Positions 16,986 to 61,979 of a stretch of DNA of 64,000 bases are shown here, piece by piece (position 1 is the stretch's first letter; each line of letters starts with the position of its first letter). Under the pieces are notes generated by a model. It was not told the DNA's origin and made no database searches. It saw only the letters and a program-made list of their open reading frames with translations. Origin of the DNA: Olsenella porci (GTDB lineage Bacteria; Actinomycetota; Coriobacteriia; Coriobacteriales; Atopobiaceae); NCBI RefSeq assembly GCF_009695875.1, contig NZ_VUNC01000002.1, positions 372,001 to 436,000 on the forward strand, written 5' to 3'. Both the position numbers and the translations under genes were made by a program.

Positions 16986-17203
16986 GCCCCCACCCCATCG
17001 CAGACCTTGGCGCGGGCGGCGCGGCGGAGGAAGGACCGCCGGTCATGCCGTGCCTCGCGTCATGCCACATCGCGGCCGCGCTTTCAGTGGCACATGATAC
17101 TCCCGACCGCCTTGTGTGGGTGGGGGCGGGAGGGATGGCATGGCAAGGACGCGGGCATGGGGGCGCCTGGCGAGGACCGGATGCGGGGTGCGGCGACTTG
17201 GGT

Positions 17204-17363
17204 GCTGAGGAAAGTCGAGTTGTGGCAATCCGAGGGGCGCACCAGAAGCCCAACCGCCGGGAAATTGCGGCCTTTGGCAGGGAATGGGCGCCTCCGACCG
17301 CCAATACTCCCCTTTCCTCAGCGGATTTGGCTTTCAGATTGCCATGACTCGCAACTCCTCAGC
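17204..17363. repeat. Family A repeat cluster 1 (F, F-degenerate, R, R)
   Basis: Intergenic 26-bp units. A forward unit lies at 17204-17229 (begins GCTGAGGAAA, ends GTTGTGGCAAT). A decayed forward unit is possible at about 17260-17285. Inverted units lie at 17297-17322 and 17338-17363 with a 15-bp spacer (GGATTTGGCTTTCAG). The outer forward unit best matches the outermost inverted unit, so the cluster can fold as a nested hairpin. It fills the 456-bp gap between the sensor kinase start and the end of the NlpC/P60 gene; nothing else was recognised in that gap. Confidence 0.8.
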
Positions 17364-17441
17364 ACCCCGACCGCTTGGGAGCCTGATTCGACTCGCGTGC
17401 ACTGGGGAGCTGCAGCTCGGCGCCCCACGGGGCTTGGGACC

Positions 17442-27709: not shown

Positions 27710-27854
27710 GGAGACTCCTTCTCCTTTGATCGGGGCTGACTCACCAACGGTAGCACCTAGCTATCGGTTTCGTCGGTATCTGGGAAGGGAATGGCCCGCA
27801 ATCGGGCGCCGGGGGTGCACCGGGGAGTTCCGTAGGCATCCCGACGGCAGGGGT

Positions 27855-28026
27855 GCTGAGGAAATGCGAGTTGTGGCAATCGGGGCGTTCTAATGCACGC
27901 TAAGTGACGGGCTTGGGCGGGGTTGTGGAACCGGAACGGGGCCCTGGGACGGACCCTGGGCCGCCAATGCTCCGCTTTCCTCGGCGGAATCGGCCTTCAG
28001 ATTGCCACAACTCGAGATTTCTCAGC
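27855..28026. repeat. Family A repeat cluster 2 (F, R, R)
   Basis: A forward unit is at 27855-27880, and inverted units are at 27960-27985 and 28001-28026 with a 15-bp spacer (GGAATCGGCCTTCAG) nearly identical to the spacer of cluster 1. Forward and outer inverted units share the CACAACTCG core. The second forward position is not recognisable. The cluster occupies the 592-bp gap between the MetY-type gene and hypA; apart from the hypA hairpin nothing else was recognised there. Confidence 0.82.
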
Positions 28027-28263
28027 AGGGGTGGCCCTTCCCCATCCCTCAACCCCACGTCTCCCCCGTCGATAGCAAATCAAACCTGCAACCATAGCGG
28101 CGATACGACCGCGGGGTGCTCGCGCGGAGCCTTCGCCGCCATGATTCGGGTCTTGACGCGCCGCCGCCCGCGAAAGGGGATTCCTAAGAGGGGCAGGACG
28201 GCGCCATCGGAGTCATTTCGCCCCCACTCGCATGATCGTCCGAAGTCTCCCGCACGCGCCAGC

Positions 28264-32325: not shown

Positions 32326-32614
32326 CTCCCACGATGCAGATGCGCGGCCCTCTCCACGCAGCCCCTCTTCGTGCTTGAAGACGTTCGCACGTCGCTCTAA
32401 ACGTTCAAAATTCCCCTACACGATTTTGCCACATTTGGAAGCACACGAGAACTACGGCAGCATTCGTTGCATGGGGAGGAGGCGACAGCGGGCGAAGGGC
32501 CGAGCGACCTGGGGCGGAGACGCGGGGAACCACCTGCAGCCGCGACGGAGGACGGGCGTTGCCGGCGTGCGACCTGCCGCCGGGAGGGAGGGCGCTTCGT
32601 CGGCGCGCGGTGCT

Positions 32615-32827
32615 GCTGAGGAAATGCGACCTGTGGCAATCGTAGCCCGCCGGCTGCTGAGGAAATGCGCCCTGTGGCAATGGGAGGGGGGCCTCCGCCC
32701 GCCAACACCCGACATTCCTCGGTGGAAACCGCCCTCCGATTGCCAGCACCCCACCTTCCTCGGCGCCCATCCGCCCGGGACGGCGTCCAGACGGCACCCG
32801 CGCTGCCACAACTCGCTTTTCCTCAGC
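32615..32827. repeat. Family A repeat cluster 3 (F, F, R, R, R)
   Basis: Forward units are at 32615-32640 and 32656-32681 (15-bp spacer). Inverted units are at 32698-32723 (16 bp after the second forward unit), 32739-32764 (15-bp spacer) and 32802-32827 (37-bp spacer). The two forward units differ by one base (GACCTGTGG / GCCCTGTGG). This is one of the fullest copies of the array. It lies in the 546-bp gap between the small ORF upstream of hypB and the marR operator region; only repeats and the marR promoter were recognised there. Confidence 0.87.
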
Positions 32828-32880
32828 ACCCCGTCGCGGCACTCCCCCGCCGACGCCCCACGTGTGCGTCCCAAATTTCA

Positions 32881-47706: not shown

Positions 47707-47914
47707 GGCCAGCTGCGGACGACGACCATCGCCGCCGGGCTGGGCCGGAGGACGAACGCGACAACCACCGAACGCGGCACGGGATCGCCCGGGCATGTGT
47801 CCCTACCAGCCCGCCTCTTCTTTGACCTCGGCTGGCGGCGGTCGCCCAGCCGGAGTCCCGCTGAGGCATTACAGGCAGCGACAACCTCGAACGGGACCCC
47901 GGAGGGCAATGGCT

Positions 47915-48074
47915 GCTGCGGAATCTCGAGTTGTGGCAATCATCGTCAGGATTCCCGCCATTTCCGCTGAGAAAAACGGAGTTGTGGCAGCGATTCGGGG
48001 TCGCATCCACGGCCAAAGCCCGACTTTCACCAGCCAAACCGCCTTCGGGTTGCCACAGGTCGCAATTCCTCAGC
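47915..48074. repeat. Family A repeat cluster 4 (F, F, R, R)
   Basis: Forward units are at 47915-47940 and 47966-47991 (25-bp spacer, 10 bp longer than the usual 15). Inverted units are at 48009-48034 and 48049-48074 (14-bp spacer). The first inverted unit is the most decayed (ends CGACTTTCACCAGC). It lies just upstream of the pilin terminator, in the sense of the plus strand. Confidence 0.8.
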
Positions 48075-48109
48075 GGCCCCACCCCGGAGATGTCACTGGC
48101 CCACGCAAA

Positions 48110-58156: not shown

Positions 58157-58420
58157 GGCGTCTCCTCTCATGAAAAAGGCGCCCGGCACCCCGAGGGGAC
58201 ACCGAGCGCACTCGACATCTTATCCGGCCATTGCCGGCTACGGCCGGCGGCCTCCGATGAACGTGGAACCTATGCTGTTGGTGCTCGGCAAGTGCTTTGC
58301 CAGGGCAGGACTACCGTAGCAGCGACACCGATGGGGGTCAACCGTCGGAGCGTGGCGCGAGGACGCCGGGCGGGCGGCTTGCTGTCGGGCGGGCCAAGTG
58401 GCGCGGGGACCCCGAGGGTG

Positions 58421-58632
58421 CTGAAGAAAGTTGAGTTGTGGCAATCCGCGAGTCCTTACCGCTGGGCAATGTCGAGTATTGGCAGCCGTGAGTGCCCTTC
58501 CATTGCCAGAGGTCGACTTTCCTCAGCAGAAATCCGCCCCCGATTGCCAATACTCGATATTCCTCAGCAGGTGACTGGCGCTCACCGCTCCCGTGCCCCC
58601 ATCGGACTGCCACGAGTCGCGCTTCCTCAGCA
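58421..58632. repeat. Family A repeat cluster 5 (F, F, R, R, R)
   Basis: Forward units are at 58421-58446 and 58462-58487 (15 bp apart). Inverted units are at 58503-58528 (15 bp after the second forward unit), 58544-58569 (15 bp) and 58607-58632 (37 bp). Spacings equal those of cluster 3 almost exactly. The second forward unit and the second inverted unit share the variant core CGAGTATTGGCA / TGCCAATACTCG, suggesting pairing. In the 614-bp divergent gap between the GNAT and LytTR genes nothing else was recognised. Confidence 0.88.
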
Positions 58633-59913: not shown

Positions 59914-60456
59914 CTACACAGCCCTTCCGAGCTTCGCGCATTCCTCGAGCTCGGGACGTCCCTCTATGCTCCCGTCCGTGGTGGTCCCGCCGATGAGGAG
60001 CGAACCAGCGAGTCTCGCCTGCTCAAAGCACGATATCCACCCGCGCAAGACGTTGATGGCATTGTCCGCCGCATCGGGCTTCTCCGACTCCGCCGTGGTG
60101 AGCAGGTACACGTCGCGAAAGCGGTTGTCTGGCGCGAAGTAGAGCGCGTTCGCCCTGTCGAGGAGGACCTTCATCTGGCCGCACATCTCGTAGTAGTAGA
60201 TGGGCGTGGCAAACGCGACGACGTCCGAATGACGTATGCGCTGAACGATTTCGTCCGCGTCATCGTGAATCACGCAGCGGTGGGAGTCCTTGCAACCCCA
60301 GCAGCCCGTGCAGAACGAAACCTTCCTCCCCGCCAGTGAGATGACATCGACGTCGTTGCCCGCCTCGCGGGCACCGCGGGCGAACTCCTCTGCCATGCGG
60401 TTGGAGTTTCCCCTCACGCGGGGGCTCGTCTCCACCACCAGGACCCTCTTGGCCAT
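59914..60456 (-). CDS. NAD(P)H-dependent FMN-binding oxidoreductase (flavodoxin-fold)
   Basis: 180 residues from the ATG at 60456 (the longer frame lacks a ribosome site). FMN loop VVETSPRVRGNSNRMAEEF, then KVSFCTGCWGCKDSHRCVIH with a CxxC pair, FATPIYYYEMCGQMKVLLDR, and a C-terminal helical end. This matches small NADPH-dependent FMN reductases and iron-sulfur-flavoprotein-like enzymes. It probably reduces quinones, metals or azo compounds. It has no operon partner. Confidence 0.87.
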   Translation of the reverse strand: MAKRVLVVETSPRVRGNSNRMAEEFARGAREAGNDVDVISLAGRKVSFCTGCWGCKDSHRCVIHDDADEIVQRIRHSDVVAFATPIYYYEMCGQMKVLLDRANALYFAPDNRFRDVYLLTTAESEKPDAADNAINVLRGWISCFEQARLAGSLLIGGTTTDGSIEGRPELEECAKLGRAV

Positions 60457-60823
60457 AATCCCCTCCCATCTGCCTCCCCCCGGAGGCATCGCTGCGGGAA
60501 TGGTATCAACCTCGCAAGGGTGGACGCGAGACCTTTCGGGGAGCGTGGAGGAGGACGTAAGGCAATCGACAAGCCAGGTCAAGGTCACCTCTGGCGCGAC
60601 CTCTTGCGCGGATGGGCATTCGCGCGCCGAGCCATCGACCGAGGTGCAGACGCGCCGATCACGCAGGCGTTGCCGTGCATAAGTTGGGTCGCGGGGATAG
60701 GGGCCCGAGATCCCGAGAGCGCTCAGACACCCCGTTCAGGGCAACCGGGGGTGAATCCGGAGAGCGGAGGCATCAGGAAATCGTGCGTTACGACAGGTCC
60801 CGGAGGCCTTGCGCCCCGAGGTT

Positions 60824-61058
60824 GCTGAGAAAAGTCGAGTATTGGCAATTTGGGGGGGCGTTGGGTGCTGAGGAATCGCGAGCTGTGGCAGGCGAGGCGG
60901 CACCGAACGGCCCATCCGTTGCGAATACTCGGCTTTCCTCAGCAGAAATGGGGCCCGGGATTGCCAATACTCGACTTTCCTGAGCAGATGGTCGCCGGGA
61001 TCGCCCGCGGCGGCTCCCAAAGCACATCTCCGATTGCCACAGCTCCGTTTTCCTCAGC
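60824..61058. repeat. Family A repeat cluster 6 (F, F, R, R, R)
   Basis: Forward units are at 60824-60849 and 60866-60891 (16-bp spacer). Inverted units are at 60918-60943, 60960-60985 (16 bp) and 61033-61058 (47 bp, ten more than in clusters 3 and 5). The first forward unit and the second inverted unit are complementary at 24 of 26 positions; the second forward unit and the third inverted one share the CTGTGGC/GCCACAG variant. It fills the 737-bp divergent gap before yaaA; the remaining DNA shows no gene. Confidence 0.9.
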
Positions 61059-61193
61059 AGCCTCCCGGCCCCCGTGCCATCTGGGGCGACCGTCACCTCC
61101 GATTCCCCGCTCCGCCACCGCCGCCTCGCCCTCCCTCACCTACCATGGTGCCGTGGGGGCGAGGTCCCGACCGTGGAAGGGAGACAAAAAGGC

Positions 61194-61979
61194 ATGCCGC
61201 TGCTGTTCATCATCTCGCCGGCAAAGCGGATGGACGTGGTCGAGGGGCCTCCCTCGGCGTGCTCGCGGCCGGAGTTCCTGGAATCCGCAACGCAGCTGGC
61301 GCACGGCCTGCTCGCGCTCGGCTACGATGGCGCCCGCCAGATCTGGCGCTGCAGCGAGGCGATCGCGCACCGAAGCTGGGCCCAGCTCCAGACGATGCCC
61401 GACGGCATGCTCGCCGACCCGGCGCTCCTCTCCCCCGCCGTCACCTCCTACGTGGGCATCCAGTACCAGCACCTCGCCCCGCAGGTCATGAGCGAGCCAC
61501 AAATCGACTGGCTGCGCACCCACCTGCGAATCCTCTCCGGAATGTACGGCGTGCTCCGCCCGCTCGACGGCGTAGTCCCCTACCGGCTCGAGATGCAGGC
61601 CCGCCTCCCCATGGGCCGTAGCCACGACCTCTACGGGTTCTGGGGCGAGAGGATCCACGACGCGCTCGCACGGGACGCCGCCGGCATGTCCATCGTGAAC
61701 GTCGCGTCGCACGAGTACGCCAAGGCGGTCACTCCGTTCGCGCGTGCGGCGAAAACGCCCATCCTCACCTGCGAGTTCCTGAGCCTGCGCAAGTCGGACG
61801 GAAGGCTGGTGCAAGCTGCGACCGAGGCAAAGGCGGCGCGCGGCACCTTCGTGCGCTGGTGCGCCGAGCAGGGGGTGGAGGAGACGGGCGAACTCGCCGA
61901 CTTCAGTGAGCGTGGCTACCGGCTGGATCGCTCGCGCTCGAACGAGGGGACGCTCACGTTCGTCCGCGACGAGCCCTAG
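61194..61979 (+). CDS. yaaA: YaaA-family peroxide stress protein
   Basis: 261 residues from MPLLFIISPAKRMDVVEGP; an in-frame earlier ATG (61074) lacks a ribosome site, while AAAAAGG is next to this one. Further YaaA features: ISPAK N-terminus, GMYGVLRPLDGVVPYRLEMQARL, FWGERI, VNVASHEYAKAV, and the tail EEKRARGTF-like AKAARGTFVRW. YaaA limits free iron and DNA damage during hydrogen peroxide stress. Single gene, family A cluster 6 upstream. Confidence 0.94.
   Translation: MPLLFIISPAKRMDVVEGPPSACSRPEFLESATQLAHGLLALGYDGARQIWRCSEAIAHRSWAQLQTMPDGMLADPALLSPAVTSYVGIQYQHLAPQVMSEPQIDWLRTHLRILSGMYGVLRPLDGVVPYRLEMQARLPMGRSHDLYGFWGERIHDALARDAAGMSIVNVASHEYAKAVTPFARAAKTPILTCEFLSLRKSDGRLVQAATEAKAARGTFVRWCAEQGVEETGELADFSERGYRLDRSRSNEGTLTFVRDEP

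Follow-up and report, generated by a model that had tools for sequence, protein, structure and literature searches.

The repeat clusters described here are probably (we put this at roughly 60%) old, host-kept chromosomal scaffolds that would offer several sites to a putative protein, being phased on the DNA helix and laid out with dyad symmetry, a reading that is drawn from sequence comparison. They were identified in a window of 64,000 nucleotides (contig C8:372001-436000) of the Olsenella porci genome (G000, 2.36 Mb), and the direct evidence consists of their motif, the order of their units, helical phasing, intergenic placement, spread to relatives, long persistence at orthologous loci and intolerance of insertions and deletions (indels). 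Among the features that weigh against this reading are that the neighbouring genes share no function and that near-duplicate arrays occur in opposite orientation, which points to past dispersal.

Repeat arrays and their genomic context

A position matrix trained on the O. porci genome defined an asymmetric unit of 28 bp with the consensus CTGCTGAGGAAAnnCGAGTTGTGGCAAT, and the search with this matrix returned 142 units in 35 clusters, six of which lie inside the window. The census was based on pattern and profile searches together with the stretches around the clusters, and an independent profile search returned 99 half-element matches in the same genome. Chance was ruled out as the origin of the repeats, the window holding 24 core matches as against 1.7 expected. 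Most clusters carry three to seven copies of the unit, and forward (F) units precede inverted (R) units in 34/34 clusters with both orientations, while the 35th cluster is a single F unit. Inner and outer units differ in consensus, as the outer units end TTGTGGCAATC and the inner ones favour TATTGGCAG.

Cluster 6 of the window (c9; 60823-61059) comprises two forward and three inverted units, i.e. F1 (60823..60850, + strand, 28 bp, TATTGG sub-type), F2 (60866..60893, + strand, CTGTGG sub-type), R1 (60917..60944, - strand, TATTCG), R2 (60959..60986, - strand, TATTGG) and R3 (61032..61059, - strand, CTGTGG). It is neighboured by a divergent gene for an NADPH-dependent FMN reductase/flavodoxin-like protein (59914..60456, - strand; Pfam PF03358) and by the gene for peroxide stress protein YaaA (61194..61979, + strand; Pfam PF03883). 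The window also holds cluster 1 (c4, 17203..17364, FFRR, offsets 0, 52, 120 and 161), cluster 2 (c5, 27854..28027, FRR, offsets 0, 132 and 173), cluster 3 (c6, 32614..32828, FFRRR, offsets 0, 41, 110, 151 and 214), cluster 4 (c7, 47914..48075, FFRR, offsets 0, 51, 121 and 161) and cluster 5 (c8, 58419..58632, FFRRR, offsets 0, 41, 109, 150 and 213).

According to the simple gene calls of this analysis all 35 clusters of the genome are intergenic, two of them with edge overlaps of 6 bp. Operators confined to promoters were ruled out, because the clusters occupy convergent (13), tandem (17) and divergent (5) gaps alike. A common regulon was likewise rejected, as 30 neighbouring genes were of mixed function, some being redox or metal genes, with no shared theme. 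Enrichment at the terminus (Ter) was discounted since element positions relative to dnaA in a relative, G118, show only a gap of approximately 180 kb around the origin; in G118 (C3) and in O. porci (C1) no strong element match falls within approximately 180 kb of dnaA, a weak hint that elements are depleted around the origin.

Several loci of the O. porci genome deserve individual mention. Clusters c11 and c12, of near-identical layout, are separated by approximately 1.4 kb without a called gene (L041:3163-4540), and a P-type ATPase gene (L046:3038-6190) stands between two clusters that share 92% identity across approximately 170 bp, an arrangement that resembles a segmental duplication. Cluster 21 adjoins a gene for a JetD-like (Wadjet) protein (L050:3314-4915). 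Cluster 33 (L063:2918-3226) has partial copies in two other uncultured Coriobacteriales genomes (L097 and L098), accompanied by MerR-like and iron alcohol dehydrogenase-like genes, the homology ending inside the array; the iron alcohol dehydrogenase gene upstream of cluster 33 was named from its translation rather than by family search.

Helical phasing of the units

The strongest feature of the arrays, which formed no part of the first-pass annotation of this DNA, is their helical phasing. Unit spacings in the O. porci genome are multiples of 10.4-10.5 bp. Adjacent units on the same strand follow one another at approximately 41, 52, 62, 73, 93 or 104 bp, and the starts of inner F and R units are mostly separated by 68 or 78-79 bp. 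The best period was 10.45-10.5 bp, the Rayleigh R being 0.92 among adjacent same-strand pairs (n=73) and 0.94 among adjacent F-R pairs (n=34), and a period of 10.4 bp fits all 144 F-R pairs. Direct and inverted units alike thus display the integral-turn spacing of phased protein-binding arrays. Furthermore, a single same-face point at unit position ~14-15 fits F and R units jointly in O. porci, in G003 and in G118, G125 and G140 (mean cosine 0.90, 0.93 and 0.99, respectively, random spacings giving no more than 0.21); the point is approximate, since a shift of some 5 bp in either direction is helically equivalent and yields a fit of about the same quality.

Distribution and constraint in related genomes

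Exact patterns matched only the O. porci genome and one cluster each in two other uncultured Coriobacteriales genomes (the partial copies of cluster 33 mentioned above), which suggested a lineage-specific repeat. This was ruled out by the half-element profile, which recovered more diverged homologues within the same family, chiefly in genus g4, and the full-element profile matched 37 of 140 family genomes. The layout in G118, G125 and G140 is fixed as F0 F41 R100 R162 R203 or its mirror image, and 16 g4 elements align with one single-base gap despite a mean identity of 62%. G003 displays a third layout, of tandem units of 41 bp. The sampled elements of relatives lie between called genes, barring edge overlaps of 7 bp at L124 and L153.

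An element is present at the matching G125 locus for 17 of the 18 G118 elements, while the remaining locus matches nothing among the G125 loci examined. Across 23 orthologous pairs, the divergence of the elements equals that of four-fold synonymous sites (0.121 vs 0.108; 0.179 vs 0.168). Length changes in the same pairs amount to two losses, each of exactly 41 bp (one unit), and the flanking intergenic DNA carries 11-13 gap events per kb, a count that includes the inverted locus L160/L189. At that locus two g4 species carry a stretch of approximately 500 bp (in G118), comprising the element and a tRNA-Asn gene, in opposite orientations (L160:1448-1967 and L189:1505-2287); indels in this element pair were accordingly ruled out in favour of a local inversion. 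Among orthologues, motif-core positions 2, 5, 17 and 22-24 change at 0.00-0.03, compared with 0.18 in the spacers; positions 22-24 show zero changes, and the rates at positions 6-13 and 18-20 are 0.16-0.32. Since substitutions are free and indels nearly absent, we infer selection on the geometry and on a small motif core, with drift in the remainder.

Other conserved features were noted around the g4 elements. The spacer between R1 and R2 contains a conserved GGGCGAGAAGAACGCCC stretch (A4 columns 104-125), and a similar GCGAGAAGAACG occurs outside the elements (L189 near 1515); the conserved spacer stretch is not explained by a simple binding-site reading and counts against it. A tRNA gene is situated no more than 300 bp from several of the g4 elements (L156, L158, L160, L185, L208 and L121), and from none of those in O. 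porci; tRNA density near g4 elements is approximately eight times that of farther flanks, a figure that includes orthologues repeatedly and concerns genes that are intergenic anyway. Additionally, a further repeat around GAGCATGC and GTGCACGG is present in several copies upstream of the element at L189:1441-1770, and these g4 genomes have Y1 transposases.

Proposed base pairing between forward and inverted units

The first-pass annotation had proposed that forward and inverted units are matched in pairs, by selection for pairing between chosen partners (nested or crossing hairpins) or by gene conversion between arms. As an account of the clusters, base-paired elements of this kind, whether hairpins in RNA or cruciforms in DNA, are unlikely, although part of the proposal found support. 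The two sub-types on which it drew, TTGTGGC and TATTGGC, are both present among the units, and units F2 (58460) and R2 (58569) of cluster 5 do both carry TATTGG. The outer F and R units of cluster 2 are indeed both of the TTGTGG type, whereas in cluster 1, for which the same had been claimed, the outer R unit (17364) reads TCATGG. In cluster 6, F1 and R2, located 163 bp apart, are identical at 25/27 positions (24/26 in the annotation), a level equalled or exceeded by 4.7% of cross-cluster and 10.4% of within-cluster F/R pairs; cluster 6 alone therefore proves little, and pairwise similarity inside one cluster was rejected as proof of pairing. The alleged match of F2 with R3 did not hold up, as unrelated F/R pairs average 19.7 identical positions and this pair, at 21/27, is little above that. 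The element of cluster 6 folds better than shuffled sequence (z of about -4, as RNA or as DNA), but a good fold is automatic for any inverted repeats.

Real F/R partners in the O. porci genome were compared with partners shuffled within distance classes (~13 classes). Pairs 161-163 bp apart showed an identity of 0.863 vs 0.821 when shuffled (p=0.0006); once one of each near-duplicate was dropped, the p value was 0.0106, which is not significant after correction for ~13 classes. All other F/R distance classes of this genome were without partner excess in the same test, and inner F/R pairs, crossing pairs, spacers, inner slots and non-core outermost pairs showed zero covariation excess. The matching of partners is thus modest in O. 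porci and limited to these outer pairs. Because inner and outer units differ in consensus, agreement of inner with inner and of outer with outer units is expected without pairing; part of the sub-type matching, and much of the inner/outer agreement, is positional.

The comparison of partner with non-partner units that the annotation had suggested was extended across genomes, where it was positive for one pair. In genus g4 the closest inverted pair, F2:R1, has a Watson-Crick fraction of 0.772 vs 0.700 when shuffled (z=4.5, p<=5e-5, the resolution limit), a signal that recurs in G118 alone (z=3.7). Compensatory pair types are present at unit positions 18-20, and paired double changes between orthologues number 15 for F2:R1 as against 4-7 for each of the other five combinations. 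A consistent partner of the R2 unit was looked for by covariation in the g4 set and in G118 alone, and none was found. True pairing therefore exists in the element family and is confined to F2:R1 in genus g4, where the matching may reflect selection for pairing or, alternatively, correction by template switching between inverted repeats that lie close together. It does not account for the arrays as a whole, since direct and inverted units alike are set on whole helical turns and pairing does not need so strict a phasing of direct repeats. In addition, Rfam searches returned tRNAs only and no known RNA family for the repeats.

Mobile elements and known repeat classes

Quite unlikely, too, is the possibility that the clusters are non-autonomous, MITE-like transposons with multi-site ends, moved by a transposase acting in trans. 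The clusters do resemble MITEs in having terminal inverted repeats, formed by the outermost F unit and the outermost R unit, and the 2+3 site asymmetry of the g4 element may recall transposon ends. The O. porci genome also contains near-duplicate arrays in opposite orientation (c5/c31, the former being cluster 2 of the window, and c13/c23) in which homology spans the array and many matches stop near the outermost units. These copies indicate that arrays were copied at some past time. However, flanking direct repeats are no commoner than in shuffled sequence, giving no signal of target-site duplication; zero clusters span a gene; array size varies by single 41-bp units; and the sharing of 17/18 G118 loci with G125 suggests that these elements are not moving. 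Searches for a Mu/Tn7-type transposase returned zero PF09299 matches, the control genomes likewise being without a match, and the searches made for a viral or plasmid origin gave zero matches.

That the clusters are extragenic palindromes of the REP/BIME/REPIN class, with gyrase or known nucleoid factors as their binding partners, is very improbable: they share with that class the intergenic, dispersed, multi-unit and inverted arrangement, and BIMEs bind IHF and gyrase (PMC2817692), but the 28-bp unit is asymmetric, where REP units are imperfect palindromes, and without a GTAG/CGTC head, its orientation does not alternate (F units always precede R units in mixed clusters), and a search for a RAYT-type (Y1) transposase (PF01797) gave no match in O. 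porci and G003, both of which are element-rich, while other g4 genomes have Y1 genes.

Proposed function and comparison with known systems

Under the favoured scaffold reading, a dedicated sequence-specific protein, as yet putative, would fill the 28-bp sites side by side, and the bound proteins would join into one rigid, roughly symmetric complex. Such a complex could shape the local DNA, as a component of chromosome architecture or as insulation between genes. Any displacement of a site from the common face of the helix would be expected to disrupt the complex, so that the only indels to survive would be those of whole turns or whole units. In the g4 relatives, the close inverted pair may be under an additional need to match, perhaps as a cruciform or hairpin, or may be subject to template-switch correction.

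The usual explanations of intergenic repeats are mobile junk and hairpins. The combination seen here of substitution at the synonymous rate, near-absent indels and helix-bound spacing in three separately diverged unit types is the trace expected of a geometry-dependent protein scaffold, and this interpretation predicts a DNA-binding protein in these bacteria. Tens of natural sites are, moreover, on offer for studying helical phasing outside promoters in bacteria. We tentatively suggest, at somewhat below even odds, that the arrays may constitute a new class of element that structures the chromosome in a single bacterial family (relatives of uncultured Coriobacteriales/Olsenella), with tens of dyad-symmetric, one-faced arrays of 28-bp sites per genome that are long kept at the same loci, selected for geometry and largely not for sequence, and served by a putative dedicated architectural protein.

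In plasmid iteron arrays and other phased operators, as in the present arrays, the sites are asymmetric and recur on the same face of the DNA at intervals of whole helical turns. Iterons and operators are situated at one origin or promoter, whereas the arrays described here have a dyad-symmetric layout and tens of chromosomal, intergenic copies. The element family is absent from the literature found (open-licence papers), which describes REP/BIME, MITE and similar repeats. With BIME, REP and REPIN elements and their RAYTs (PMC2817692, PMC3116915) it has in common dispersed, intergenic, multi-unit and inverted copies and proposed roles in chromosome organisation; it differs in its asymmetric 28-bp unit, F..F R..R order, helical phasing and fixed geometry, and in that no RAYT was found in O. 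porci or G003. Correia elements and bacterial MITEs (PMC2229807, PMC10969869) are similar in length (~150-200 bp) and in their inverted terminal repeats of ~28 bp, and are unlike the present elements, which have apparently static loci and internal phased units, and neither a target duplication signal nor an identified related transposase. STAR, BOX and RUP (PMC3532100, PMC3049150) are likewise modular intergenic repeats, from which, by their description, the arrays reported here are set apart in that geometry is kept while sequence drifts.
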